From assembly GCF_003627965.1 (NCBI RefSeq), contig NZ_RBWE01000001.1:1102588-1166587 (forward strand): 64,000 bases of DNA, read 5' to 3'. The notes under the pieces were generated by a model. That model was not told where the DNA came from and made no database searches. It saw only the letters and a program-made list of their open reading frames with translations. Positions within the stretch are counted from its first letter, which is position 1. Every line of letters starts with the position of its first letter. The position numbers and the translations under genes were made by a program. The DNA is from Desulfofundulus salinus (GTDB lineage Bacteria > Bacillota > Desulfotomaculia > Desulfotomaculales > Desulfovirgulaceae). Shown here piece by piece: positions 13,757-33,065 of this stretch.

Positions 13757-13773
13757 CACATTTAAAAAATATA

Positions 13774-14069
13774 CTGTCGCAAAATCAGAAACAAAACGGG
13801 CGGCGGTCGTCCCTTAAGGAGCGACATTGCGGAGGGCCGGATACGACACACGGCGCTGCCGAGGTTAGCGAACCGGCAGCGCGAATCGCGCTGGTACCAG
13901 TATCGATAGAATGATTGAGCTACTTAAGCTGTAATTATCTCATGAAAAAATAAGACTTCCGGCGCATATGCAGCGCTGCCAGGTTCGCTCCGAGGCAAGC
14001 CGATGTTTCGTCCGGCCCGTAGCACGGAGCGACGGGGGACGACCGCCGCGCCGGGTAGTTATGCGACAA
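13774..14069 (+). mobile_element. Miniature inverted-repeat element, copy 1
   Basis: A 296-bp non-coding element has termini CTGTCGCA and TGCGACAA, flanked on both sides by TA. Longer imperfect terminal inverted repeats share CGGCGGTCGTCCC. Internal palindromes are present, for example CGCTGCCG with CGGCAGCG near 13855-13882. Copy 2, in the same orientation and about 85-90% similar by eye, is at 20385-20678. A TA target site fits IS630/Tc1-mariner-type transposition in trans. No transposase is encoded. The right end lies 25 bases before aspA. Confidence 0.8.
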
Positions 14070-14093
14070 TATCAAAAAGGGTGTTGGGTTGAG

Positions 14094-15527
14094 GTGTCCT
14101 ACCGGGTAGAAAAAGATCTGCTGGGTGAAAGGGAAATCCCCCGGGAGGCCTACTACGGCATCCATACTTTAAGGGCCAAAGAAAATTTTGCCGTGTCCGG
14201 GGTTCCCGTTCACCGGGAGCTCATCTGGGCCCTGGCCCTGGTCAAAAAAGCCGCGGCCATGGCCAACAGGGAGATTGGTTTGCTGGAACCCCGCATTGCC
14301 GGGGCCATAGTGCAGGCGGCGGAAGAACTGGCCCGGGGGCAGTGGCATGATCAAATTGTAGTCGACGCCTTTCAGGGCGGGGCGGGCACTTCCACCAACA
14401 TGAATGTCAACGAGGTCATTGCCAACCGGGCCATTGAAATCCTGGGGGGGACAAAGGGAGATTACTCACTGGTCCATCCGCTGGATCACGTTAACCTGGG
14501 CCAGTCCACCAATGACGTTTACCCTACGGCCCTGCGGGTGGCGGCCATCAAACTGGTGCGGGAGTTGAGCCAGGCCATGGCCGTTCTGCAGGGGGCCCTG
14601 CAGGCCAGGGAAAAGGAGTTTGCCACCATACTCAAGATCGGCCGCACCCAGCTGCAGGATGCAGTGCCCGTTACCCTGGGCCAGGAGTTCAGCGCCTACG
14701 CTGAGGCGGTAGCCCGGGACTGGTGGCGTTTGTACAAGGCAGAGGAACGCCTGCGGCAGGTTAACCTGGGTGGGACAGCCGTGGGGACGGGACTCAACGC
14801 CAGCCGGCGTTATATCTTCCGGGTGGTGGAGATCCTGCGGGAGCTGACCGGTTTTGGCCTGGCCCGGGCGGAAAACACCGTGGAAGCCACGCAAAATGCC
14901 GATATTTTCGCGGAGGTCTCCGGCTTTGTAAAGACCGCCGCCGTCAACCTGGCCAAGATCGCCGGGGATCTGCGCCTGTTATCTTCCGGCCCCCGGGCGG
15001 GATTGGGGGAAATCAGGCTGCCTGAGGTGCAGGCCGGTTCATCGATCATGCCCGGCAAGGTCAACCCCGTGATCCCCGAAATGGTCACCCAGGTGGCCTA
15101 CCAGGTGATGGCCGGCGATGCGGCTGTTAACATGGCCGCGGCTTCCGGGCAGCTGGAGTTGAATGCCTTCCTCCCCCTGATTGCCCACAATTTGCTCCAC
15201 TCCCTGGAAATGATGACCGGGGCGGCCAGGTTGCTGGCGGAAAAATGCGTCCGGGGCATTCAAGCTGATGAGGCCCGCTGCCGGCAGCTGCTGGAAGCCA
15301 GCCAGGGAGTGATCACCGCTTTTGTCCCTTACCTGGGCTACGAGAAGGCTACCGCCGTGGTTCTGCGGGCGGTCCGAAGCGGTCGGCCGGTGACGGAACT
15401 GCTGGTGGAGGAGGGGTTGTTCACCAGGGAGGAAATCGAAGCAATCCTTAAACCGGAAGAGCTGACCACACCGGGTGTGGCCGGCGTGCGGCATTTAAAA
15501 CGTTTTTTAACCAGGGAAGGTGATTAA
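14094..15527 (+). CDS. aspA: Aspartate ammonia-lyase
   Basis: Converts aspartate to fumarate plus ammonia; a cytosolic tetramer of the fumarase/aspartase superfamily. The 477-residue protein opens YRVEKDLLGEREIP and has the superfamily signature GSSIMPGKVNPVIPE near residue 315. NVNEVIANRA and GQSTNDVYPTA are also present. A fumarase is less likely because of the aspartase-like LGEREIP/YYGIHTLRA start. The start is unclear: GTG 14094 is chosen by homology, although no clean SD precedes it and an ATG at 14062 arises from the end of the miniature element. It lies directly upstream of hydF, three bases away, in a maturation operon. This suggests it supplies ammonia for building the dithiomethylamine ligand of the H-cluster. 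Confidence 0.88.
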   Translation: MSYRVEKDLLGEREIPREAYYGIHTLRAKENFAVSGVPVHRELIWALALVKKAAAMANREIGLLEPRIAGAIVQAAEELARGQWHDQIVVDAFQGGAGTSTNMNVNEVIANRAIEILGGTKGDYSLVHPLDHVNLGQSTNDVYPTALRVAAIKLVRELSQAMAVLQGALQAREKEFATILKIGRTQLQDAVPVTLGQEFSAYAEAVARDWWRLYKAEERLRQVNLGGTAVGTGLNASRRYIFRVVEILRELTGFGLARAENTVEATQNADIFAEVSGFVKTAAVNLAKIAGDLRLLSSGPRAGLGEIRLPEVQAGSSIMPGKVNPVIPEMVTQVAYQVMAGDAAVNMAAASGQLELNAFLPLIAHNLLHSLEMMTGAARLLAEKCVRGIQADEARCRQLLEASQGVITAFVPYLGYEKATAVVLRAVRSGRPVTELLVEEGLFTREEIEAILKPEELTTPGVAGVRHLKRFLTREGD

Positions 15528-15530
15528 GCC

Positions 15531-16814
15531 ATGAGCCTGAATGCCACCCCCCGGGGGCAGCGGCTGCACATTGCCCTTTTCGGCCGGCGCAATGCAGGCA
15601 AATCCAGCTTAATTAACGCCATAACCAACCAGGAAGTGGCCATCGTTTCCGGCATCCCCGGCACAACCACCGATCCCGTGGCCAAGGCCATGGAGCTCCT
15701 CCCCCTGGGGCCGGTGATGATTATCGACACGGCGGGGCTGGACGATACCGGGGAACTGGGCGCCCTGCGGGTGCAGAAGACCCTGGAGGTGCTCAACAAA
15801 ACCGACCTGGCCCTTTTGGTGGTGGATCCCGGGCGGGGAATTGGGGAATATGAACGGGATGTGGTGAACCGGGCCCGGGAACAAAAAGTGCCGGTGCTGG
15901 GAGTAATCAACAAAATCGACCTCTACCCCGAAGCGGTTAACCGCCCGTGGCAGCAGGAACTGGATGTGCCCTTTGTGGCGGTCAGCGCTTTGACCCGCCG
16001 GGGCATCAATGAGCTGAAAATGGCTGTCGTAAAGGCTGCCCCCAGGGACTGGGCCCTTCCCACCATTGTGGGGGACCTGATTGAACCGGGGGACCTGGTC
16101 ATGCTGGTCATCCCCATTGACAAGGCTGCTCCCAGGGGGAGGCTCATCCTCCCGCAGCAGCAGGTAATCCGGGACGTGCTGGAAAACGACGCCGTGGCAG
16201 TGATGGTCAAGGAGCGGGAGCTGAAGCACGCCCTGGCCAGCATGGCCGTGAAGCCGAAGCTGGTGGTTACCGATGCCTCGGCCTATCTCAAAGCTGTGGC
16301 CGACACACCGCCGGATGTGCTTTTTACCTCCTTTTCCATCCTGTTTGCCCGCTATAAAGGAGACCTGCCCACCCTGGTGGCCGGGGCCAGAGCCGTCAAG
16401 GATTTAAAGCCCGGGGACAAAATCCTCATTGCCGAGGCCTGTACCCATCACCCCATCCAGGATGATATCGGCCGGGTGAAGATCCCCCGCTGGCTCCGGC
16501 AGGCGGTGGGAGGGGAACTGGTATTTGACGTGGCCAGCGGCGGGAGCACCCTGCCTGAAAATCTCCGGGATTACAAGCTGATCGTGCACTGCGGGGCCTG
16601 TATGCTCAACCGCAGGGAAATGCTCTACCGGATCATGCAGGCCCAGGAAGCCGGGGTGCCAGTTGTCAATTACGGCGTGCTCATGGCCCACATTCACGGG
16701 GTTTTAAAGCGGGCATTATCCCCCTTCCCCCAGGCTTTAGCCATTCTTGAAGAGGAACAGGTGGAATTTGAAGACGAGCTGGCCCTGTTGAGCAGGTATC
16801 GCGAACACAGGTGA
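15531..16814 (+). CDS. hydF: [FeFe]-hydrogenase H-cluster maturation GTPase
   Basis: The scaffold that assembles the two-iron subcluster and delivers it to HydA. The N-terminal GTPase domain shows GRRNAGKSSLIN (P-loop), PGTTTD, DTAGLDD and NKID. A dimerisation domain follows. The C-terminal cluster-binding domain carries ACTHHPIQDD and HCGACMLNRREM, giving the CxH ... HCxxC ligand set. It is 427 residues, normal for the family. ATG follows aspA by three bases, with AAGGTGATT as the ribosome-binding site. hydE follows after four bases. Confidence 0.96.
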   Translation: MSLNATPRGQRLHIALFGRRNAGKSSLINAITNQEVAIVSGIPGTTTDPVAKAMELLPLGPVMIIDTAGLDDTGELGALRVQKTLEVLNKTDLALLVVDPGRGIGEYERDVVNRAREQKVPVLGVINKIDLYPEAVNRPWQQELDVPFVAVSALTRRGINELKMAVVKAAPRDWALPTIVGDLIEPGDLVMLVIPIDKAAPRGRLILPQQQVIRDVLENDAVAVMVKERELKHALASMAVKPKLVVTDASAYLKAVADTPPDVLFTSFSILFARYKGDLPTLVAGARAVKDLKPGDKILIAEACTHHPIQDDIGRVKIPRWLRQAVGGELVFDVASGGSTLPENLRDYKLIVHCGACMLNRREMLYRIMQAQEAGVPVVNYGVLMAHIHGVLKRALSPFPQALAILEEEQVEFEDELALLSRYREHR

Positions 16815-16818
16815 TCCT

Positions 16819-17883
16819 ATGCGGCACGAGTTCATGGAAGCGCTGGCCAAAGCCAGAGAAGCCCATAGCCTTGAGCACCAGGAAATCCTTATTCTCCTCC
16901 AGGCCAGGGGCGAAGAGGTTGATGCCCTCAGCCGGGCGGCCGATGCCGTGAGAGCAAAGTACCTGGGAGATGAGGTGCATTTACGGGGCATCATTGAGTT
17001 TTCCAACTACTGCCGCCGGAACTGCCTTTACTGCGGCCTGCGCCGGGACAACCGGCAGCTGCGGCGCTATCGTTTAACCCCCGGGGAAATCCTGGCCGCT
17101 GCCCGTAAGGCAGCCGGGCTGGGTCTTCCGACCATTGTTCTGCAATCGGGGGAAGATCCCCATTATACGGCCCCGGTTCTGGCGGATATCATCAGGCGTT
17201 TAAAGGAAGAGGTGGGGGTGGGAGCGGTAACCCTTTCCGTCGGCGAGCGTTCCTTTGAGGATTACCGCCTGTGGCGGGAAGCGGGGGCCGACCGCTACCT
17301 CTTGAAGCACGAAACTGCCGGCGCCGCCCTTTTTGCCCGGCTGCGGCCGGGTACCACCTTGCAGGACCGGCTGCTGCGCCTGAAGTGGTTGCAGGAGCTG
17401 GGCTACCAGGTGGGGTCGGGAAACATCGTCGGCCTGCCTGGCCAGAGTTTGGAAACCCTGGCCGCCGACATCCTGCTCCTGCGGGAATTGGACGTAGAGA
17501 TGGCGGGCATTGGCCCCTTCATACCCCACCCGCAAACACCCCTGGCAAAAGAGCCTCCCGGAGAGCTGGAACTCACCCTGAAGGTGCTGGCCGTGTCCAG
17601 GTTGCTCCTTCCCCGGACCCATTTGCCCGCCACCACCGCCCTGGGTACCATCCACCCCGCGGGGCGCCGTTTGGGCCTGTGTTTTGGTGCCAACGTGATT
17701 ATGCCCGATACAACCCCGCCGCCTTACCGCTACTATTACCAGATCTATCCCGGGAAGGCGGGACTGCACGAGGAAATGGAAACGACACTGGTTTCGTTGA
17801 AGAACCTGATCTTTTCCTTAAACCGGCGGGTGGGGAGCGGACCGGGGCATTCTCCAAAAATTCAAGGAGGGATGGAACAGTGA
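16819..17883 (+). CDS. hydE: [FeFe]-hydrogenase maturation radical SAM protein HydE
   Basis: A radical-SAM enzyme that processes the iron-cysteine synthon made by HydG during two-iron cluster synthesis, releasing 5'-deoxyadenosine. The 354-residue TIM-barrel protein has the cluster motif CRRNCLYC (CX3CX2C) near residue 65. It also has the HydE/BioB-like segments LQSGEDP, TLSVGER and VGLPGQS. A C-terminal BATS-like region is present. Its end overlaps the hydG GTG start by four bases, so the two are translationally coupled. Confidence 0.95.
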   Translation: MRHEFMEALAKAREAHSLEHQEILILLQARGEEVDALSRAADAVRAKYLGDEVHLRGIIEFSNYCRRNCLYCGLRRDNRQLRRYRLTPGEILAAARKAAGLGLPTIVLQSGEDPHYTAPVLADIIRRLKEEVGVGAVTLSVGERSFEDYRLWREAGADRYLLKHETAGAALFARLRPGTTLQDRLLRLKWLQELGYQVGSGNIVGLPGQSLETLAADILLLRELDVEMAGIGPFIPHPQTPLAKEPPGELELTLKVLAVSRLLLPRTHLPATTALGTIHPAGRRLGLCFGANVIMPDTTPPPYRYYYQIYPGKAGLHEEMETTLVSLKNLIFSLNRRVGSGPGHSPKIQGGMEQ

Positions 17884-19292
17884 AGTGTGAACCGGCTACC
17901 TTTATCAACGAAGAGCAAATTAACGGTCTGCTGGAAGAAGGCCGCCGGGCAACTCCTGCCACGGCCCGGGAGATCATCGCCCGGGCGGAAGAGGCCAGGG
18001 GGCTCTCCCCCTTTGAAGTGGCCGTTTTGCTCCATGTAGAGGACCGGGGTACCCTGGACCTCATGTATGCCACCGCGCACCGGGTTAAAGAAAAGATCTA
18101 CGGCAAAAGGCTGGTTCTCTTTGCCCCCCTTTATATCAGCAACTACTGCATCAACAACTGCCGGTACTGTGGTTACCGCCGGGACAACAAAGAACTGGTG
18201 CGGCGCCGCCTGACCATGGAGGAAATACGGGATGAAGTGATTGCCCTGGAAGCCATGGGACACAAGCGGCTGGCCCTGGAAACGGGGGAGGACCCCGTCA
18301 ACTGCCCTATCGATTACGTGCTGGAAGCCATCGAGACCATCTACTCCGTTAAGGACAAGAACGGCAGCATCCGGCGGGTGAACGTGAATATCGCCGCCAC
18401 TACGGTGGATGAATACCGGCTTTTAAAAAAGGTTGGCATCGGCACTTATATTTTATTCCAGGAAACTTACCACCGCGATACCTACCGGGCCATGCACCCC
18501 TCCGGCCCCAAGCGGGATTACGACTGGCACACCACGGCCATGGACCGGGCTATGGAGGCTGGAATTGATGACGTGGGCCTGGGCGTTTTATTTGGTTTAT
18601 ATGACTATAGGTTTGAAGTGCTGGGCCTGCTCTTCCATGCTTTGCATCTGGAAGAGCGCTTTGGCGTAGGTCCCCACACCATCTCGGTTCCCCGGCTGCG
18701 CCCGGCCTTAAATATCAATCTGGAAAACTTCCCTTACCTGGTTTCCGACCGGGACTTCAAAAAAATCATCGCCATTTTGCGCCTGGCCGTACCTTACACC
18801 GGCATGATTCTCTCCACCCGGGAACGGCCCGGGTTCCGGGATGAATTGATCTCGGTGGGCATTTCCCAGATCAGTGCCGGTTCGTGTACGGGCGTGGGAG
18901 GCTACCACAGGGCTTTGACGGGCGAGCACCGGGAAGAGGGAGATACTTCCCAGTTCCAGGTGGAGGATCACCGGAGCCCCGACGAAGTGCTGCGCAGCAT
19001 TTGTTTATCCGGGTACATACCCAGCTTCTGTACGGCCTGTTACCGCAAGGGGCGTACCGGTGACCGGTTTATGTCTTTAGCTAAAACCGGCCAGATCCAG
19101 AACGTCTGCCAGCCCAACGCCATTCTCACCTTCAAGGAATTTCTCCTGGACTATGCATCGCCCCGGACCCGGCAGGTGGGTGAGGAGACCATCCAGAAGC
19201 ACCTGGAGTTGATCGAAAATTCCGCCGTGCGCGAGGAAACCGCAGCCCGTTTGGAAATGATCGAAAAAGGACAGCGGGACCTGTACTTTTAG
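17880..19292 (+). CDS. hydG: [FeFe]-hydrogenase maturation radical SAM tyrosine lyase HydG
   Basis: Cleaves tyrosine to p-cresol and dehydroglycine, which yields the CO and CN ligands bound to iron. The 470-residue protein has the radical-SAM motif CINNCRYC near residue 90 and the family segments LETGEDP and QETYHRDTY. The C-terminal auxiliary-cluster motif CTACYRKGRTG is near 385. The start is the GTG in GTGA overlapping the hydE stop, with AAGGAGG nine bases upstream. The open frame extends about 600 bases further upstream, but that part is hydE read in another frame. A terminator follows. Confidence 0.96.
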   Translation: MKCEPATFINEEQINGLLEEGRRATPATAREIIARAEEARGLSPFEVAVLLHVEDRGTLDLMYATAHRVKEKIYGKRLVLFAPLYISNYCINNCRYCGYRRDNKELVRRRLTMEEIRDEVIALEAMGHKRLALETGEDPVNCPIDYVLEAIETIYSVKDKNGSIRRVNVNIAATTVDEYRLLKKVGIGTYILFQETYHRDTYRAMHPSGPKRDYDWHTTAMDRAMEAGIDDVGLGVLFGLYDYRFEVLGLLFHALHLEERFGVGPHTISVPRLRPALNINLENFPYLVSDRDFKKIIAILRLAVPYTGMILSTRERPGFRDELISVGISQISAGSCTGVGGYHRALTGEHREEGDTSQFQVEDHRSPDEVLRSICLSGYIPSFCTACYRKGRTGDRFMSLAKTGQIQNVCQPNAILTFKEFLLDYASPRTRQVGEETIQKHLELIENSAVREETAARLEMIEKGQRDLYF

Positions 19293-19510: not shown

Positions 19511-19605
19511 TCTGTTGTAATAAACAATTTTGATGACTAACGATAACGTAATATTATTGTATAGGGCGAATGATCAAAAAAGCTTTTTATGGCAGGTGAA
19601 CGACA

Positions 19606-19947
19606 ATCAAGTTACATGTCATTAAAGAGATGCTCCATGCCGATGTGCTCTGCGGTGCCGACCTGCTTGACATAGAGGTCACCTGCGGCTTTGGCTGTGA
19701 CCTGATCAGCGATTCTTTGTGTTTTGCCAGGCCGGGTTGCCTTCTGCTCACCGGGCTTACCAATGTGCAGATCATCCGTCTTGCGGAAATGGTGGAGGCG
19801 CGGGCCATCGTTTTTGTGCGGGGTAAGAGGCCCGGTGAAGACGTAATCAAGCTGGCGCGGGAAAAGGGCCTTCCCTTGCTGGCGACCGATCTATTCCTGT
19901 TTGAAAGTTGCGGCATCCTCTACCAGGCGGGACTGCGGAGTTCCTGA
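19606..19947 (+). CDS. DRTGG-domain protein of the hydrogenase cluster
   Basis: A 113-residue single DRTGG domain reads ADVLCGADLLDIEVTCGFGCDLISD, then PGCLLLTGLTNVQIIRLAEM. Such domains accompany [FeFe]-hydrogenase operons and are thought to be ligand-binding regulatory modules. Comparison with relatives (MKL...EVLCG) places the first residue at codon 19606, which is ATC. AGGTGAA sits five bases before it, and no ATG, GTG or TTG lies between the upstream stop and ATG 19630. ATC initiation is therefore the best reading; ATG 19630 is the fallback. Another DRTGG protein is at 22085. Confidence 0.8.
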   Translation: MKLHVIKEMLHADVLCGADLLDIEVTCGFGCDLISDSLCFARPGCLLLTGLTNVQIIRLAEMVEARAIVFVRGKRPGEDVIKLAREKGLPLLATDLFLFESCGILYQAGLRSS

Positions 19948-19964
19948 AACGGGGGTAAGGTGCC

Positions 19965-20378
19965 TTGCAACTGAAGTTTCAGGTGAAGGGGATGGATTTT
20001 GGCCGGGCAGGCCAGGCCGCAACAAAGATCAAAAAAGCCTTACAGCTGGCCGGTATGGATCCCGCGACCATTCGCAAGGCCATCATCATTGCCTACGAGG
20101 CGGAGATGAACATCGTCATCCATGCCTATCATGGCACCCTGACGGCCAATATCACTCCCCACAAAGTGGAAATCATCGCCGAAGATGAAGGTCCGGGTAT
20201 TCCCGATATTCCCCTGGCCATGCAGGAAGGATATTCCACCGCTCCGCCCCACATCCGGGAGATGGGTTTCGGAGCAGGCATGGGCCTGCCCAACATCAAA
20301 AAAAGCGCCGATGAACTGGATATCCAGTCGGAAGTAAATAAAGGCACCAGACTGTGGGCGGCAGTTTTCAACAATTAG
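19965..20378 (+). CDS. Anti-sigma-factor-type (RsbW/RsbT-like) HATPase
   Basis: A 137-residue GHKL ATPase of the serine-kinase/anti-sigma class, showing the N-box AYEAEMNIVIHAY, the G1-box EDEGPGIPDI and a G2-box GFGAGMGLPNIKK. It would bind ATP and act on a partner protein. In hydrogenase clusters these are presumed to relay a redox or hydrogen signal, but the partner is unknown. It begins with TTG preceded by AAGGTG. The miniature-element copy 2 begins seven bases after its stop. Confidence 0.85.
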   Translation: MQLKFQVKGMDFGRAGQAATKIKKALQLAGMDPATIRKAIIIAYEAEMNIVIHAYHGTLTANITPHKVEIIAEDEGPGIPDIPLAMQEGYSTAPPHIREMGFGAGMGLPNIKKSADELDIQSEVNKGTRLWAAVFNN

Positions 20379-20384
20379 TTGATA

Positions 20385-20678
20385 CTGTCACAAAACCAGA
20401 AACTAGATGGGCGGCGGTCGTCCCATAAGGAGCGACATTGCGGAGGGCTGGATACGAAACACGGCGCAGCCGAGGTTAGCGAACCGGCAGCGCGAATCGC
20501 GCTGGTAGCAGTATCGATATAATGATTGAGCTGCTTAAGCTATAACTATTCATGAGGAAAGTAGACTTCCGGCGCATATGCAGCGCTGCCAGGTTCGCTC
20601 CGAGGCAAGCCGATGTTTCGTCCGGCCCGCAGCACGGAGCGACGGGGGAACGACCGCGCCCCGATAGTTATGCGACAG
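20385..20678 (+). mobile_element. Miniature inverted-repeat element, copy 2
   Basis: A 294-bp copy of the element at 13774-14069, in the same orientation. The ends are CTGTCACA and TGCGACAG, with TA immediately outside each end (20383-20384 and 20679-20680). It has a few substitutions and small indels relative to copy 1 and no coding capacity. Confidence 0.8.
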
Positions 20679-20740
20679 TAGCTAGCTAAGAGCTAAACGG
20701 AACGACGGGAGACGACCGCTGCCGGGGTATGCGACAAATA
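20679..20740 (+). repeat. Extra partial right end of the miniature element
   Basis: After copy 2 the sequence repeats a shortened right end (ACGACGGGAGACGACCGC then GGGTATGCGACAAATA), ending with a second TGCGACA at 20730-20736. It is a partial tandem duplication, or the scar of an earlier insertion. It ends 25 bases before the next gene, the same distance as copy 1 from aspA. Confidence 0.65.
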
Positions 20741-20760
20741 TGTAGAAGTGGTGATTAAAA

Positions 20761-22098
20761 ATGCAGCAATATTTCCATTCGGTGCGTCTCGACGAAGAAA
20801 AATGCAAAGGGTGCACCAACTGCATCAAACACTGCCCTACGGAAGCCATCCGGGTTCGCAAGGGTAGAGCCCGCATTATCGAGGAGCGCTGTATTGACTG
20901 CGGCGAGTGTATTCGCATCTGCCCCAACCAGGCCAAGCTGGCCATAACCGATTGCCTGGAAAAACTAAAAGATTTTAAATATACCGTTGCCCTCCCTGCT
21001 CCTTCCTTTTACGGTCAATTTAAACCCGAAGTTACCCCCTCCCGGGTATTAAGTGCCCTGCTAGCCCTGGGCTTTCATGATGTTTTTGAAGTAGCCCTGG
21101 CGGCTGAAGCGGTTTCGTGGGCAATCAGGCATTATATGGAAGTATGTGTTGACAGGCCCCGGCCGTTGATCTCATCAGCCTGTCCTGCGGTAGTCAGGTT
21201 AATCCAGGTGCGCTTTCCCAGCCTGCTGGAACACATCATTCCCATAGAATCTCCCATGGAAATAGCCGGGCGTATGGCCCGGGAGCAGTCCTGCCGGAAG
21301 ACCGGGCTTGAACCGGACGAGATTGGCACCTTTTTCATTACCCCCTGTCCCGCCAAAGTGACGGAAGTAAAACAACCGTCCGAAGGTAGATCCAGTGTCG
21401 ATGGGGCCATCTCCATGGCCGTGGTTTATGGTGCTCTGCTCAAACGCCTGGAAATGCCCGCACCATACCCGGTGGCTCCCCGGGCTTCGGGAGTGGGCAT
21501 TGGTTGGGGCCGGGCAGGGGGAGAAAACGAGGCCATTAAAGCCGGGTCGCTGCTGGCCGTTGACGGTATCCACAGCGTGATTAGCGTTCTGGAAGAAATA
21601 GAAAGGGGAGGCCTTACGGACATCGATTACCTGGAGGCCCAGGCCTGCACGGGAGGCTGCATTGGCGGCCCCCTTGTGCCGCAAAATCCCTTCGTGGCAC
21701 GCGTGCGCATGGGTAATCTGGTCAAATTGTACCCTGCCGGGGAACCATGGGACTTTCCCCGGGATTTCGACTACTATCGCCTGAAAACACCCATTCCGGC
21801 CCGCCCGGCCTTAACCCTGGCCAAAGACCCCCAGGTGGCCCTGGCCCGGCTGGAAGAAGCGGAGCGAATTTGCGCCGAACTCCCCGGGCTGGATTGCGGA
21901 TCCTGCGGTTCCCCCAGCTGCCGCGCCCTGGCTGAAGATATAGTGCAGGGGTATGCCCGCCGCAGCTATTGTATCTTTGAACTGCGGGAACGGCTGCAGC
22001 AACTGGCGGAAGAGATGGTCGAACTGGCCCAGAAACAGCCGCCGGCCATGGGGCGGGATTGGAAACAGGCAAGGGACGGGGGTGGTGAAACTGATTGA
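20761..22098 (+). CDS. [FeFe]-hydrogenase-like sensory protein with C-terminal Fe-S domain
   Basis: The 445-residue protein begins with two 4Fe-4S ferredoxin motifs (CKGCTNCIKHCP and CIDCGECIRICP, residues 15-60). A hydrogenase H-cluster domain follows (about 70-360). H-cluster motifs are modified: L1 is SSACPAVV instead of TSCCPxW, L2 is TPCPAK, and L3 is EAQACTGGCIGGP. The four cluster-binding cysteines thus look retained, while the proton-relay cysteine of L1 is Ala. A C-terminal CGSCGSPSCRALAEDIV adds another cluster motif. This matches the putative sensory, HfsB-type enzymes found beside regulatory genes. The role is inferred: sensing hydrogen or redox state rather than bulk turnover. 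Confidence 0.85.
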   Translation: MQQYFHSVRLDEEKCKGCTNCIKHCPTEAIRVRKGRARIIEERCIDCGECIRICPNQAKLAITDCLEKLKDFKYTVALPAPSFYGQFKPEVTPSRVLSALLALGFHDVFEVALAAEAVSWAIRHYMEVCVDRPRPLISSACPAVVRLIQVRFPSLLEHIIPIESPMEIAGRMAREQSCRKTGLEPDEIGTFFITPCPAKVTEVKQPSEGRSSVDGAISMAVVYGALLKRLEMPAPYPVAPRASGVGIGWGRAGGENEAIKAGSLLAVDGIHSVISVLEEIERGGLTDIDYLEAQACTGGCIGGPLVPQNPFVARVRMGNLVKLYPAGEPWDFPRDFDYYRLKTPIPARPALTLAKDPQVALARLEEAERICAELPGLDCGSCGSPSCRALAEDIVQGYARRSYCIFELRERLQQLAEEMVELAQKQPPAMGRDWKQARDGGGETD

Positions 22099-22477
22099 CT
22101 GGCGGGAAATAATTGCTGAACTGGAACTGACAGCCCATCACCACAATGCCCTGGCCCTGCCCCCGGTATACGGCGCCTACTGTGGTGATATGATGAGCGA
22201 CGTGCTGGCCCGTGCCCGCCGGGGGAGCCTGTGGATTACCATCCAGCGCCACCGGAATGTAATTGCCGTGGCTTCCCTGGTGGGTTTAAGCGGGGTTGTT
22301 ATTTCCGGAGGCCGGGTTCCCCCGCCGGATACCGTGGCCCTGGCCGAGAAGGAAGGTGTGCCCCTCTTCTCCACACCCCTTGATAGTTTTCATGCCGCCG
22401 GCAGGTTTTATTACCTGCTCACCAGGGCCGGTTTGATCAACCCGGGGGAAAATAGTACCGCTGAACCACAAAAATGA
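22085..22477 (+). CDS. DRTGG-domain protein, second copy in the cluster
   Basis: A 130-residue DRTGG-type domain (AYCGDMMSDVLARARRGSLW, then HRNVIAVASLVGLSGVVISGG) is related to but divergent from the protein at 19606. It overlaps the sensory hydrogenase gene by 14 bases. Two consecutive GTG codons (22082, 22085) can start it. Its place between the sensor and the hydrogenase subunits suggests a regulatory role, not a catalytic one. Confidence 0.82.
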   Translation: MKLIDWREIIAELELTAHHHNALALPPVYGAYCGDMMSDVLARARRGSLWITIQRHRNVIAVASLVGLSGVVISGGRVPPPDTVALAEKEGVPLFSTPLDSFHAAGRFYYLLTRAGLINPGENSTAEPQK

Positions 22478-22593
22478 ACGAGGATGGGTGCACCCGTTCC
22501 GATAGATTGAAGACCAGATCATGAAGGGAGGTGATGTATCCTTTTGGGGTCCGCTACCAGCATAGATAGACCATGAGCAAGGAGGTTGTTGTG

Positions 22594-23076
22594 ATGTCCG
22601 TTGCTTGCAAGTGTAGCGGGGAATTGAACAGTAGAATGGATGCGCTGCTTGAGCAATATCGCGGGCAGCCCTCGGCGTTAATTCAAGTGCTGCACCAGGC
22701 GCAGGGGATTTACGGTTACCTGCCCAAAAAGGTACTGCAGAGGGTAGCCGAAGCTCTCAACGTACCCTTAAGTCAGGTCTACGGCGTGGTATCTTTCTAC
22801 TCCTTCTTTACCATTCATCCCAAGGGCAAGCACCAGATCAGCGTGTGTAAGGGTACGGCCTGCTACGTGCGGGGGGCGGGGCAGCTCCTGGATCGCATCA
22901 AAGAAGAACTGGGCCTCAAGCCCGGGGAGACCACCGAAGACGGCCAGTTTTCCCTGGAAGTAGTGCGCTGCCTTGGGGCCTGCGGCCTGGGACCGGTGAT
23001 CACTGTGGATGAAGACGTTCACGCCCGGGTTCAACCGGAGCGCCTGTCCGGTATCCTGGCGGCTTACCGGCAATAA
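22594..23076 (+). CDS. NADH dehydrogenase NuoE-like [2Fe-2S] subunit of the hydrogenase
   Basis: The 160-residue thioredoxin-like ferredoxin has cluster ligands CKGTAC (about 88-93) and CLGAC (about 128-132), preceded by the helical bundle typical of NuoE (LIQVLHQAQGIYGYLP). It corresponds to HydC of trimeric electron-bifurcating hydrogenases, passing electrons between the flavin subunit and HydA. ATG 22594 is chosen over ATG 22573 because AAGGAGG lies eight bases before it, inside the longer frame. Confidence 0.93.
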   Translation: MSVACKCSGELNSRMDALLEQYRGQPSALIQVLHQAQGIYGYLPKKVLQRVAEALNVPLSQVYGVVSFYSFFTIHPKGKHQISVCKGTACYVRGAGQLLDRIKEELGLKPGETTEDGQFSLEVVRCLGACGLGPVITVDEDVHARVQPERLSGILAAYRQ

Positions 23077-23094
23077 GTGATGGGAGGGATTCCC

Positions 23095-23673
23095 ATGATG
23101 GAAGAACTGGCTCACCACATTCTGGATATCGCCAGAAATTCCCTGGAGGCCGGGGCTACCCGTGTGGAGATTACCGTAGAAGAGGATCCGGCCAGCGACG
23201 TATTGCGTTTTTCCGTAATTGATAACGGTTCCGGGATGCCCCCATACGTGCTGCGCCAGTTGACCAACCCGTTTTTTACCACCAAAAGCGGTAAAAAAGT
23301 GGGTCTTGGGTTGCCTTTTTTACAGGCGGCGGTGGAGCGGTGCGGCGGCGACCTGGAAATAAAGAGTGACGTTGGCCTCGGAACAACGGTTGTAGCTACA
23401 TTTCCTTATTATTGCTGGGACCGTCCCCCCCTGGGGGATATGCCCCGGACCATCGTTAGCCTGCTGGTGGGCAATGGCCATCTGGACCTGTGCTACCGTC
23501 ACATTTTCAACGGTCAGAGCTTTGAGCTGGATACCAGGGAAATCAGGTCCCGCCTCAAAGGGATATCTCTGGATACACCGGAGGTACTTATCTGGCTGCG
23601 CCAGTATCTTACCGAAAGTTTAAGCATACTTAGCGGAGGTGGTGGGTATGAAATCGCTCGCCGAGCTGGATAA
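23095..23673 (+). CDS. Sensor-kinase-like HATPase protein
   Basis: The 192-residue GHKL ATPase has H/N-box residues (LAHHILDIARNSLEAGA), the G1 box DNGSGMPP, an F-box (NPFFTTK) and the G2 box GLGLPFLQAA. It lacks a sensory or phosphotransfer domain. Proteins of this type are regularly embedded between NuoE and NuoF genes of [FeFe]-hydrogenase operons; the target is not known. The start is the ATG with GGGAGGG six bases before it. It overlaps the next gene by 26 bases. Confidence 0.88.
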   Translation: MMEELAHHILDIARNSLEAGATRVEITVEEDPASDVLRFSVIDNGSGMPPYVLRQLTNPFFTTKSGKKVGLGLPFLQAAVERCGGDLEIKSDVGLGTTVVATFPYYCWDRPPLGDMPRTIVSLLVGNGHLDLCYRHIFNGQSFELDTREIRSRLKGISLDTPEVLIWLRQYLTESLSILSGGGGYEIARRAG

Positions 23674-24004
23674 GCTCAGGGAGAAGCTGCAGGAAGAGAT
23701 GCGCCTGCGGGAGGGCAGGGAGGACGTTAAAGTGGTGGTAACCATGGGTACCTGCGGGATTGCCTCGGGGGCCCGGGAGGTGCTCACTGCCATCCTGGAG
23801 GAAATCAGCAAGAGGGGACTGAAGGGTGTAACGGTAACCCAGACCGGGTGTGCCGGCCTGTGCCATTGCGAGCCGCTGGTGGAAGTGGAAAGGCCCGGCC
23901 GGGATAAGGTTACCTACGGACACGTGGATGAGAAAAAAGCGCGGGAAATTGTGGTTTCCCACCTGGTCAACGGCCAGATAATTAAAGAGTGGACTATTAA
24001 GTAA
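23648..24004 (+). CDS. Thioredoxin-like [2Fe-2S] ferredoxin
   Basis: A 118-residue protein with an N-terminal coiled stretch (LDKLREKLQEEMRLREGRED), then a thioredoxin-fold ferredoxin with MGTCGIASGAREV and GCAGLCHCEPLVEV, providing the four cysteine ligands. It resembles the N-terminal ferredoxin domain of the adjacent NuoF-like subunit and could act as an accessory electron carrier. The ATG has GGAGGTGG eight bases upstream. Confidence 0.9.
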   Translation: MKSLAELDKLREKLQEEMRLREGREDVKVVVTMGTCGIASGAREVLTAILEEISKRGLKGVTVTQTGCAGLCHCEPLVEVERPGRDKVTYGHVDEKKAREIVVSHLVNGQIIKEWTIK

Positions 24005-24019: not shown

Positions 24020-25813
24020 ATGGAACTTTACAGGGCTCATGTTCTGGTCTGTGCCGGGGCCGGGTGTATTTCCTCGGGGTGCCAGGCAGTAAAATCTGCC
24101 CTGGAAGAGAGCATAGACAGGCTGGGTTTAAAGCGCGAAGTGAAGGTGGTTGAAACCGGCTGTATGGGTCCCTGCGACCTGGGCCCGGTAATTGTGGTTT
24201 ATCCCGAGGGAGTGTTTTACCGCCAGTTAAAACCCGCGGATGCAGTGGAAATCGCCGAAGAACATTTGTTAAAGGGGCGGGTGGTGGAGCGCCTGCTGTA
24301 CAAGACGCCCGAAGACGGCAAGACGGCGGTGACCTCCGATCAGATAGATTTCTTTAAAAAGCAGACCCGCATTGCCCTGCGCAACACGGGAATCATCAAC
24401 CCTGAATCGGTGGAAGAATACATTGCCCGCGACGGGTACCGGGCTTTGGGCAAAGTGCTTACCAGCATGACCCCGGAAGAAGTCATCGAGTGCATCAAAA
24501 AATCCGGTTTACGGGGGCGGGGCGGCGCAGGATTTCCGACCGGCTTGAAGTGGGAGTTTTCAGCCAAAGCGCCGGGGAAGCCCAAGTACGTGGTCTGTAA
24601 CGCCGACGAGGGCGATCCGGGCGCCTTTATGGATAGAAGTATTCTCGAAGGGGATCCCCATAGCGTGCTGGAAGCCATGGCCATCTGCGGCTACGCCATA
24701 GGAGCAAACCAGGGCTACGTTTATGTCCGGGCCGAATACCCCCTGGCGGTGCAAAGATTGAGCCTGGCCATCGAAAAGGCCCGGGAATACGGCCTGCTGG
24801 GAGAAAACATCTTTGGCACGGGCTTTAGTTTCGACGTGGAAATCCGGGTGGGAGCCGGCGCCTTTGTCTGCGGCGAGGAAACGGCCCTGCTGGCTTCCAT
24901 TGAAGGCCGCCGCGGTGAACCAAGGCCCAGACCTCCCTTTCCTGCCCAGGAAGGCCTTTGGGGAAAGCCCACGGTGATCAACAACGTGGAAACATGGGCC
25001 AACATTCCGCCCATTATCCTGAAGGGGCCCGAATGGTTTGCCTCCATCGGCACGGAGAAGAGCAAGGGAACGAAGGTCTTCGCCCTGGCCGGTAAAGTAA
25101 ACAACACCGGTCTGGTTGAGGTGCCCATGGGTACCACCTTGAGGGAAATTATCTTTGATATTGGCGGTGGCATCCCGGGAGGCAAGCAATTCAAGGCCGC
25201 GCAGACGGGAGGCCCCTCCGGCGGCTGCATCCCGGCCCGATACCTGGACGTGCCGGTGGATTACGAGTCGCTGACCCAGCTGGGAGCCATCATGGGCTCC
25301 GGCGGTTTAATTATCATGGATGAGGATACCTGTATGGTGGACCTGGCCCGGTTCTTCCTCGAGTTTGTCCAGGACGAGTCCTGCGGCAAGTGTTCTCCCT
25401 GCCGCATTGGCACCAAGCGCATGCTGGAGATTGTGGAGCGGATAACCCGGGGTGAGGGCCGGGATGGGGATATCGAGCTTCTGGAAGAGCTGGGGCACGG
25501 CATCAAGTCTTCCGCCCTGTGCGGCCTCGGACAGACCGCTCCCAATCCCGTGCTCAGCACCATCCGCCACTTCCGCGACGAGTATGAAGCCCATATATAC
25601 CACAAGAAGTGTCCCGCCGGGGTTTGCCGCGCCTTGATGGTGTACGCCATAGACGAAGAAAAATGCAACGGCTGCGGGCGCTGCGCCCTGGTATGTCCGG
25701 CAAAAGCTATTTCCGGAGAGAAAAAGAAGCCCCACCGGATAGACCTGGAAAAATGCCTCCGGTGCGGCACGTGTATGGAAAAGTGCAAGTTTGGTGCTAT
25801 CTATATCATTTAA
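24020..25813 (+). CDS. hydB: NuoF-like flavin subunit of the NAD-linked [FeFe]-hydrogenase
   Basis: The 597-residue flavoprotein would bind FMN and NAD(H) and, in bifurcating relatives, splits electrons between NADH and ferredoxin. Order of domains: N-terminal [2Fe-2S] thioredoxin-like ([11 protein letters not shown] and CMGPC, residues 11-52); NuoF Rossmann-like FMN/NAD domain ([16 protein letters not shown] near 165, [10 protein letters not shown]); SLBB; 4Fe-4S helical domain ([13 protein letters not shown] near 455); C-terminal two-cluster ferredoxin ([12 protein letters not shown] and [11 protein letters not shown]). HydA follows after 16 bases. Confidence 0.95.
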
Positions 25814-25829: not shown

Positions 25830-27554
25830 ATGTCCCTGGTGACGCTTACTATAGATGGGCGACAGGTTCAGGTGCCGCCCGGCACCACCATCCTGGCGGC
25901 GGCCAGGCAGGCTGGGGTAAAAATCCCCACGCTCTGTTACCTGGAGGAGTTGAACGTCATCGGTGCCTGCCGCCTGTGCCTGGTGCAGGTAGAAGGAGCC
26001 CGCGCGCTGGTGGCTGCCTGTGTAACCCGGGCCGCCGAGGGGATGGTGGTTCATACCAGCACACCGGCGGTACGGCACGCGCGCCGGCTTAATTTGGAAC
26101 TGCTCATGTCCAACCACCCCCAGGAGTGTCTGACCTGTGTACGCAATACCAGCTGCGAGCTGCAGCAACTGGCGGCCGAACTGGGAGTGGGAGAAATTCG
26201 CCTCCAGGGGGAGATGTCTCCCTACGAGGTGGACGATTCCAGCCCCTCTATAATCCGTGACCCGCGCAAGTGCGTCCTTTGCCGCCGCTGCGTGGCGGTG
26301 TGCGAAAAGGTGCAGGGGGTCAGCGCCATTGCCGTCCAGGAACGGGGCTTTGATACCGTGGTGGCACCGGCCTTCCTGGCGCCGCTGGGCGAGGTAAACT
26401 GTGTCAACTGCGGCCAGTGCTCGCTGGTTTGTCCCACGGCGGCCATTCACGAGCGGGATGAAACGGACAAAGTTTGGGCCGCCCTGGCCGACCCGGAAAA
26501 GCACGTGGTGGTGCAAACCGCCCCTGCCGTGCGGGTAAGTATCGGCGAGATGTTCGGGCTGGAACCGGGAAGTATTGTTACGGGTAAGCTGGTGGCCGCT
26601 TTAAGGCGCCTGGGATTTGATAAAGTCTTTGATACTGATTTTACCGCTGATTTAACGATCATGGAAGAGGGTAGCGAGTTAATTCACCGCCTGCAGAACG
26701 GCGGCAGGCTCCCCCTGATTACATCGTGCAGCCCGGGGTGGATCAAATTTATTGAGCACTTTTACCCCAACCTGCTGCCTAACTTATCAACCTGCAAGTC
26801 GCCGCAGCAGATGTTCGGTGCCCTGGCCAAGACCTACTATGCGCAAAAAGAAGGTATCGATCCGGCCAGGATCTTCGTAGTTTCCATCATGCCCTGTACG
26901 GCGAAAAAATACGAAGCCGGCCGCCCGGAGATGAACTCCAGCGGCTACCGGGATGTGGACGTGGTGCTCACCACCCGGGAACTGGGTAGAATGCTCAAGC
27001 AGGCGGGTATTGATTTCGAGTCCCTTCCCGAGGAAGATTACGACGCGCCCCTGGGTATTTCCACCGGAGCGGGAGTCATCTTCGGGGCCACCGGTGGGGT
27101 GATGGAAGCAGCCCTGCGGACCGCTTATGAACTGGTCACGGGTGCTACCCTGCTGTCCCTGGACTTTGAGGAGGTCCGCGGGCTTGAAGGGGTGAAGGAA
27201 GCTTCCGTCAACCTGGCCGGGACGGAGTTGAAAGTAGCCGTGGCCCACGGGCTTGGCAATGCCCGCAGGGTCCTGGATGCCGTGGCAAACAAGGAAAGGG
27301 AGTACCATTTCATCGAAATCATGTGCTGCCCCGGCGGATGTATTGGCGGCGGCGGCCAGCCGGTTCCCGTGGACAATGAGATCCGGGCAAAACGTATCGC
27401 AGCCATCTACCAGGTGGACCGGCAGATGCCGCTGCGTAAATCCCACGAAAACCCGGCCGTACAGGCCCTGTACAGGGAGTTCCTGGGCGAGCCCCTGGGG
27501 CACAAGTCCCACGAGCTTCTGCATACACATTACACTCCGAGGGAGCGGTTTTAA
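25830..27554 (+). CDS. hydA: [FeFe]-hydrogenase catalytic subunit, NAD-linked bifurcating type
   Basis: Reversible hydrogen evolution. The 574-residue protein has an N-terminal [2Fe-2S] domain (Cys36, 47, 50 and about 63). A His-Cys3 cluster region (HPQECLTCVRNTSC) and two 4Fe-4S motifs (CVLCRRCVAVCE and CVNCGQCSLVCP) follow. The H-cluster domain has L1 TSCSPGW, L2 MPCTAKKYE and L3 MCCPGGCIGGGGQP. The Ser in TSCSPGW is typical of multimeric group A enzymes. With the NuoE- and NuoF-like subunits it forms a HydABC-type enzyme that would oxidise NADH plus reduced ferredoxin or run in reverse. The ATG has GGAGGGAGA four bases before it. Confidence 0.95.
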   Translation: MSLVTLTIDGRQVQVPPGTTILAAARQAGVKIPTLCYLEELNVIGACRLCLVQVEGARALVAACVTRAAEGMVVHTSTPAVRHARRLNLELLMSNHPQECLTCVRNTSCELQQLAAELGVGEIRLQGEMSPYEVDDSSPSIIRDPRKCVLCRRCVAVCEKVQGVSAIAVQERGFDTVVAPAFLAPLGEVNCVNCGQCSLVCPTAAIHERDETDKVWAALADPEKHVVVQTAPAVRVSIGEMFGLEPGSIVTGKLVAALRRLGFDKVFDTDFTADLTIMEEGSELIHRLQNGGRLPLITSCSPGWIKFIEHFYPNLLPNLSTCKSPQQMFGALAKTYYAQKEGIDPARIFVVSIMPCTAKKYEAGRPEMNSSGYRDVDVVLTTRELGRMLKQAGIDFESLPEEDYDAPLGISTGAGVIFGATGGVMEAALRTAYELVTGATLLSLDFEEVRGLEGVKEASVNLAGTELKVAVAHGLGNARRVLDAVANKEREYHFIEIMCCPGGCIGGGGQPVPVDNEIRAKRIAAIYQVDRQMPLRKSHENPAVQALYREFLGEPLGHKSHELLHTHYTPRERF

Positions 27555-32015: not shown

Positions 32016-33065
32016 ATGAGAAATCTGTACATTATGGGCACTCCGGCCAGCGGTAAAACGGCCCTGGCCCTGGGCCTGGCTCAAAAATTGCAAAAAGAAG
32101 GCTTTCGGGTTGTATACTTCAAGCCTATCGGGAGCCCTTCCCGGGGACCGGAACGGATGGATGAGGATGCCGTTTTAATGCGGGAAGTGCTGGGGATGGA
32201 CGTGCCCCTGGAATTAGTGGTGCCCCGGATGATCGGCCCATCCTACCTGTCCGGCAATGGTTGTAAAGACGCTCTTGCCCACGTCCGCGCAGCCTACGAG
32301 CAGATTTCCGCAGGTGCCGATGTGGTGATTATCGGCGGGGCAGCCTACCCCTACGCTTACGCCGCCTGCGGGTTGGACGATATTACCCTGGCCAGACAAC
32401 TGGACGCTCAGGTATTGCTGGTGTTAAACATTGAAAATGATTTTGGCTTTGACCAGGCCCTGTTCTTTAACCGCAGCTTTACGGCGGCGGGGGTAAATCT
32501 TTTGGGGAACATTTTCAACAACATTCCCCGTCCTCTCCTGGCCAAGATCGAAGGCATCTACCGGCCCCTTTTAGAGGAACACGGCTACCGCACTTTGGGT
32601 GTGATCCCGCGCCGCCCGGAAATTGCTTCCCCTACCGTGGAAGAATACTATGAAGTTCTGGGCGGGGAAATCCTGACCGGCAGCGAAAATCTAAAGCGCC
32701 TGGTGGAGGATGTGGTGGTCGGGGCCATGACCGCCGAGAGCGCCCTGACCTATTTCCGCCGCACTGCCGATAAGGCGGTGATTCTGGGTGGTGACCGGGC
32801 CGATGTTGCCCTGGCCGCCCTGGAAACCAGCACCTCGGTGCTCATCCTGACTGGCGGCCTCTATCCCGACGTGAAGGTCATTGCCCGGGCGCAGGAAAAG
32901 GGAGTGCCCCTGATCCTGGTTCACTATGATACCTATACTACTATCGAAAAAATCAGCCACTTGTCCCGTCGTTTAAAGCCGGGCGATACCACCGGAATTA
33001 AAGTGGCCCTGGAAAACGTGGAACAGTATTGCCAGTGGGAGGCCATTGTGGAGGCTTTGCGCTAA
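32016..33065 (+). CDS. BioD-like P-loop/DRTGG protein (phosphotransacetylase N-terminal-like)
   Basis: The 349-residue protein begins with a dethiobiotin-synthetase-like P-loop (MGTPASGKTALALGLA). A DRTGG domain occupies about 215-325 (DKAVILGGDRADVALAALETSTSVLILTG, in part). This architecture equals the regulatory N-terminus of long phosphotransacetylases, without the catalytic domain. Its immediate position after the ADP-forming synthetase suggests it regulates acetyl-CoA/acetate conversion, possibly sensing a nucleotide. It ends in a terminator. Confidence 0.85.
   Translation: MRNLYIMGTPASGKTALALGLAQKLQKEGFRVVYFKPIGSPSRGPERMDEDAVLMREVLGMDVPLELVVPRMIGPSYLSGNGCKDALAHVRAAYEQISAGADVVIIGGAAYPYAYAACGLDDITLARQLDAQVLLVLNIENDFGFDQALFFNRSFTAAGVNLLGNIFNNIPRPLLAKIEGIYRPLLEEHGYRTLGVIPRRPEIASPTVEEYYEVLGGEILTGSENLKRLVEDVVVGAMTAESALTYFRRTADKAVILGGDRADVALAALETSTSVLILTGGLYPDVKVIARAQEKGVPLILVHYDTYTTIEKISHLSRRLKPGDTTGIKVALENVEQYCQWEAIVEALR

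Follow-up and report, generated by a model that had tools for sequence, protein, structure and literature searches.

The closest described relatives of the locus analysed here are found around the group D putative sensory [FeFe] hydrogenases, which have been studied intensively in vitro and include TamHydS of Thermoanaerobacter mathranii. According to PMC8163306 and PMC10407848, proteins of the TamHydS class have Ala in place of Cys at the L1 proton-relay position and lack a PAS domain, the relay-position Ala being Ala131 in TmHydS and Ala137 in TamHydS (PMC10407848). The literature also reports that TamHydS has measurable catalytic activity (PMC8163306), that H2 induces a change in its secondary structure (cited in PMC13104023), and that group D enzymes occur upstream of bifurcating hydrogenases with a kinase nearby (PMC3561251, PMC8163306). 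The operons of group D lack a PAS domain as well, and PMC8163306 states "how signal transduction is achieved" as an open question. In Halanaerobium hydrogeniformans, the genes Halsa_1862-1871 were listed in passing, with no analysis, as encoding a PHP protein, a histidine kinase, an anti-sigma-type kinase, an iron-sulfur hydrogenase, and HydABC (PMC4237134).

We analysed a comparable locus in a 64,000-nucleotide stretch of the Desulfofundulus salinus genome, referred to here as the window. Positions 19606-23673 are part of an operon that encodes an NADH-dependent group A6 [FeFe] hydrogenase, and they contain, in order on the + strand, genes for a first DRTGG protein (D1), a GHKL ATPase (K1), the putative sensory hydrogenase (HydS), a second DRTGG protein (D2), the HydC/NuoE subunit, and a second GHKL ATPase (K2). 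HydC is a NuoE-like 2Fe-2S thioredoxin-fold subunit (22573-23076, +; PF01257, 181.9 bits). K2 is followed on the same strand by a 2Fe-2S thioredoxin-like ferredoxin (23639-24004; PF01257 at 21.5 bits and an NCBIfam ferredoxin model at 40.8 bits, both below cut-off), by NuoF-like HydB (24020-25813; TIGR01959 at 522 bits, below the cut-off of 558.65, and NF010120 at 410.8 bits, above the cut-off of 389), and by HydA (25833-27554; NF040763 at 944.7 bits, above cut-off). D1 is preceded, again on the + strand, by open reading frames for the H-cluster maturases (15531-19292), namely hydF (15531-16814), hydE (16819-17883), and hydG (about 17881-19292), named from their own sequence and from matches to genes of relatives. 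Intergenic spacing is mostly 0-95 bases or an overlap, with the exception of a 382-base gap between K1 and HydS. Scans for promoters and terminators gave matches at or below chance level.

A sequence-only reading of this region had named five proteins interleaved with catalytic subunits, and all five are present by Pfam (DRTGG twice, HATPase_c twice, Fe_hyd_lg_C once), with HydC/NuoE between them and the 2Fe-2S protein, HydB, and HydA downstream. Its remark that no classical response regulator is present, leaving the signal output unexplained, also holds for the operon, among whose open reading frames no receiver-domain gene was seen. An aspartate ammonia-lyase-like gene, so identified by sequence, lies at 13968-15527 directly upstream of hydF-hydE-hydG. 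The L1 motif of HydA is TSCSP, with the Ser aligned to the Cys ligand of the H-cluster cubane; HydA1 in PDB entry 7q4v_A also has TSCSP, and HydA1 in 8a6t_A has TSCCP.

HydS (20761-22098, +) matches Fe_hyd_lg_C with 121.5 bits and contains two N-terminal [4Fe-4S] motifs (C15/18/21/25 and C44/47/50/54) and a C-terminal FeS domain with a Cx2Cx4Cx16C motif (C379/382/387/404), all of which are conserved in about 100 homologues. The H-cluster cysteines C141, C196, C296, and C300 are kept in 99-100 of 100 homologues. No Pfam match to a PAS domain was found in HydS, and the protein ends 39 residues past the FeS domain. E255 corresponds to the group D proton-path Glu252 and is Glu in 99 of 100 sequences; this residue is Val in group A and Gln or Leu in group C. 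In a tree of the H-domain, all HydS lie on one side of a branch with support of 1.000 and groups A and C on the other, and the HydS of T. wiegelii falls on the same side as that of the window. By its sequence, HydS is assigned to the group D (M2e) putative sensory [FeFe] hydrogenases. The hydrogenase part of our finding is already known, HydS being a member of the published class that includes TamHydS. The sequence-only reading had singled out the SSACP motif, in which the L1 proton-relay Cys is replaced by Ala. Alignment bears out this replacement (A140, with TSACP in the two best PDB matches and Cys in group A proteins), and Ala occupies the position in 86 of 100 HydS relatives. Since the change is typical of groups C and D and already published for them (PMC8163306, PMC10407848), it is no novelty of this locus.

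The window genome has five [FeFe]-hydrogenase genes. One (L004) is a second sensory hydrogenase, group C-like with a long C-terminal extension, and it adjoins a hydrogenase (L003) that is fused C-terminally to a 2Fe-2S-like part. At another cassette locus (L057:11410-13320), a 637-aa hydrogenase-like protein whose C-terminal stretch resembles a methyl-accepting chemotaxis signalling domain is encoded directly downstream of K1-HydS.

What is new here is the co-occurrence of K1 with HydS, the recurrence of these genes away from hydrogenase genes, their natural fusions, the RsbT-like character of K1, a version with CBS domains that lacks HydS, and the MutL-like character of K2. The gene content and order can be observed directly in other genomes. 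We scanned one genome per GTDB species and picked 80 named loci by HydS peptides only; since these are the loci whose HydS is most like that of the window, the sample leans towards its subclade, and some loci stop at contig ends. Among the resulting 81 loci, window included, K1 lies directly upstream of HydS in 79, D1 precedes K1 in 72, D2 follows HydS in 71, and a gene for a PHP phosphoesterase comes next in 68. The order D1-K1-HydS-D2(-PHP) is kept across Bacillota and in metagenome-assembled genomes labelled Atribacteria, Syntrophorhabdales, Spirochaetales, and Armatimonadetes. Loci such as L052, L063, L102, and L104 have the D1-K1-HydS-D2 unit without HydB in their 10-kb flanks, and where the sensor cassette sits in a divergent operon (four loci), K2 remains beside HydC/HydB. 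These two arrangements resolve the region into two modules, one for the sensor (D1-K1-HydS-D2-PHP) and one for the hydrogenase (C-K2-fd-B-A).

Across 299 genomes of the phylum, K1 and HydS are both present in 119 and both absent from 172, with K1 alone in 7 and HydS alone in 1 (Fisher p = 1e-73, a value that ignores the relatedness of the genomes). The profiles were built from envelope-only alignments, and presence was called at clean score gaps (173 versus 80 bits for K1, 253 versus 181 bits for HydS); 3 HydS copies scored as present are fragmented. The two genes also change together inside families, with 5 genomes having both and 4 neither in one family and 4 having both and 6 neither in another. 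Natural fusions join the same neighbours: D1-K1 is a single open frame in seven loci, some perhaps from the same species, and K1-HydS (L080, L151), HydS-D2 (L152, L153), and PHP-K2 (L071) fusions occur as well. Fusions of adjacent genes count for less than those of distant genes, and because neighbouring genes fuse readily we treat these as supporting evidence and no proof of binding. The reading in which HydS is no more than a slow hydrogenase catalyst and its neighbours are unrelated passengers of the operon would agree with the catalytic activity reported for TamHydS in PMC8163306, but the co-occurrence and fusions speak strongly against it, and we regard it as extremely improbable. It is close to certain that the genes form a genuine conserved sensor cassette. 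The "sensory circuit" of the sequence-only reading is therefore sound as a conserved genetic unit, given the co-occurrence, the fusions, and an order kept in about 70 of 81 loci, and as a whole it is partly supported.

An interspersed repeat of about 304 bp (20380-20683) takes up most of the gap between K1 and HydS and is one of four main copies of an about 300-base repeat in the genome that are 84-91% alike; another copy lies at 13771-14068. The repeat has no match to an Rfam family and is absent from the K1-HydS site in a sister species. It entered this site in D. salinus and is no part of the circuit.

K1 (19965-20378, +) matches HATPase_c with 34.2 bits, and its catalytic Glu45 and Asn49 and its glycine boxes are intact, with E45, N49, D74, G76, and G78 invariant in 31 sequences. 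It has the GHKL kinase fold with an RsbT-like ATP lid. The sequence-only reading had called this protein an anti-sigma-type ATPase, and K1 could accordingly be pictured as an anti-sigma factor whose binding to a sigma factor is controlled by HydS, with a transcriptional output. The best NCBIfam model is indeed SpoIIAB (53.2 bits, below the cut-off of 135; RsbW gives 16.3 against 145), and the K1 fold also matches SpoIIAB. Compared with one RsbT-like protein and one SpoIIAB, both from the window genome and the former adjoining a gene that is RsbR-like by sequence, K1 is nevertheless closer to RsbT in 59 of 60 sequences by BLAST (mean 56 versus 42 bits), and the K1 profile scores RsbT at 60.8 and SpoIIAB at 48.9 bits. 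Neither sigma-factor nor STAS genes are recurrent among the cassette neighbourhoods. The anti-sigma label is probably wrong, and we consider an anti-sigma role very unlikely. Judged from its sequence, K1 may instead work like an RsbT-type switch kinase, a claim about manner of working only, as the neighbourhoods offer no recurrent STAS substrate; it is likely the immediate partner of HydS.

In 5 loci, tandem CBS domains are found N-terminal on K1 (E about 1e-30), and 4 of these 5 have no HydS in the cassette. The core D1-K1-D2-PHP-K2 persists without HydS in L154, L156, and L157, so that the core is not hydrogen-specific. It looks as though HydS would be one input and the CBS pair, which binds adenylates in other proteins, another.

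D1 (19606-19947, +) and D2 (22085-22477, +, with a GTG start that overlaps the end of HydS) score 25.9 and 30.1 bits against Pfam PF07085, both above its cut-off of 25.2 bits. The modelled fold of D1 matches AF1212 (2ioj) and the DRTGG domain of CBS-pyrophosphatase. All 60 D1 sequences compared contain a D-L-x-S motif, and all 60 D2 sequences have its Ser (59 matching the pattern and L080 reading DVLS). We propose, hypothetically and from this conservation, that the invariant Ser is a candidate phosphate acceptor. Ordinary DRTGG domains of the window genome have GAMT at about the same position, and the Ser alone is therefore no proof of phosphate acceptance; adenylate binding, as in CBS-pyrophosphatase, is the better-known role of DRTGG and CBS domains. 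When a natural D1-K1 fusion was modelled with AlphaFold2, the domains were confident and their arrangement was not (pTM 0.56), and the model was therefore kept out of claims about the interface. A P-loop protein whose DRTGG domain reaches full score (113 bits) is encoded at about 32016-33062, near the hydrogenase operon, and a second copy occurs elsewhere in the genome.

The PHP phosphoesterase is gone from the window's own lineage and absent in most of its order, and a sister species has it beside its second copy of HydS. Its absence from this lineage means that PHP is not essential. A candidate for its orthologue in the window genome (L131) was rejected, as this best homologue shares just 31% identity across 114 residues.

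The start of D1 is probably a non-AUG codon, ATC at 19606, since the homologous position has no ATG, GTG, or TTG; the first ATG is at 19630. This start agrees with the coordinate in the sequence-only reading. The start region (19594-19632) has a conserved AGGTGA, about six bases, and then ATC/ATT/ATA-AAA/AAG-CTN/TTN. A start of this type is also found in eleven further loci, and the non-AUG loci mostly have an in-frame TGA just upstream; other clades have ATG-AAA at this position. A conserved AUU/AUC-type start, if true, would suggest translational control of D1.

K2 (23077-23673, +; PF02518, 65.6 bits) had been described as a kinase-like ATPase without a receiver. It is a GHKL ATPase and has no receiver, but the kinase label is doubtful: the 198-aa protein begins at the ATPase domain, carries a small C-terminal domain, and has no phospho-accepting His (DHp) domain, which makes it unlikely to be a classical kinase. 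Its AlphaFold2 model (pLDDT 90.1, pTM 0.85) has the N-terminal domain of MutL as its best fold match over about its whole length (TM 0.56 by query), while catalytic domains of histidine kinases align with no more than roughly its first 110 residues. As modelled, K2 would be no histidine kinase but a clamp ATPase like MutL.

This likeness of K2 to MutL clamps, together with its position between catalytic subunits, would also suit a different explanation, in which D1, D2, K1, and K2 are factors for the assembly or activity control of HydABC, with adenylate sensing by the DRTGG (and CBS) domains, clamping by K2 powered by ATP, HydS as an electron-exchange partner, and no phospho-relay. The tandem CBS domains on K1 in some species point the same way, DRTGG-CBS regions being binders of adenylates in CBS-pyrophosphatase. 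The tracking of HydS by K1, and the loci with D1-K1-HydS-D2 and no HydB in their 10-kb flanks, argue against this explanation, which we hold to be possible but rather unlikely.

Our preferred model is that HydS gates K1, that K1 acts on the DRTGG pair, and that the output is local. HydS would read H2, or the redox state of ferredoxin in equilibrium with it, at a slow H-cluster and pass the change via its C-terminal [4Fe-4S] domain to K1, gating the RsbT-like kinase. K1 would then act on D1 and D2, which would stand where STAS proteins stand in Rsb switches, with the Ser of D-L-x-S as the candidate phosphate acceptor and PHP reversing the mark in most species. The output would most simply go to K2, travelling with HydC/HydB, which could then adjust the activity or assembly of the hydrogenase. 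The cassette, its intact ATP-site and H-cluster residues included, is observed; we infer H2 sensing, phosphotransfer to the DRTGG proteins, the part played by PHP, and the output. We give the model as a whole an even chance of being right, and the phospho-switch on the DRTGG proteins together with its output about an even chance at best. Its most specific form is a partner switch that dispenses with STAS proteins, having an RsbT-like kinase, DRTGG substrates, reversal by PHP, inputs from H2 (HydS) and adenylates (DRTGG, in some species also CBS), and a MutL-like clamp acting on a bifurcating hydrogenase; this form is a tentative one that we think is more probably wrong than right.

The output might instead run through the NADH repressor Rex, modulated by the cassette, as a Rex-like gene lies directly upstream of D1 in seven loci. 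Operons shared with Rex may only reflect common redox control, however, the likely Rex gene of the window genome is distant (G000:C1:1779614), and an operator search in the window gave 3 matches, which is chance level. We regard this route as quite unlikely and retain the local output. HydS is tied almost obligately to K1 and the two DRTGG proteins, and this link, together with the fusions, names candidate signalling partners of group D hydrogenases and points to a testable answer on their signalling route. If true, the model would place DRTGG proteins in a kinase switch and would offer a handle on H2 sensing by fermenting bacteria.

Several known systems share parts of this arrangement. In the partner switching of RsbT/RsbS-RsbR and SpoIIAB/SpoIIAA, the kinase has the same GHKL fold, catalytic Glu/Asn, and, for RsbT, ATP lid as K1, whereas the cassette has DRTGG proteins instead of a nearby STAS partner and no PP2C phosphatase but often PHP. 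The regulatory region of CBS-pyrophosphatase (CBS-DRTGG-CBS; 3l2b, 3l31) shares the DRTGG fold, and the tandem CBS domains recur on K1 of some relatives, but in the cassette these domains belong to separate proteins or to a kinase, and a pyrophosphatase is absent. Group C sensory hydrogenases (TmHydS, HfsB, HydS of R. albus) also adjoin catalytic hydrogenase genes, and many have Ala in L1; they differ in having a PAS domain and other kinase or phosphatase partners. The Halsa_1862-1871 operon contains PHP, which the window lacks. For TamHydS, Ser and Leu have been reported as pocket residues where the HydS of the window has T194 and Q294, and the DRTGG pair and PHP gene of window-type cassettes were not found discussed in the accessible parts of PMC8163306, PMC10407848, and PMC13104023.
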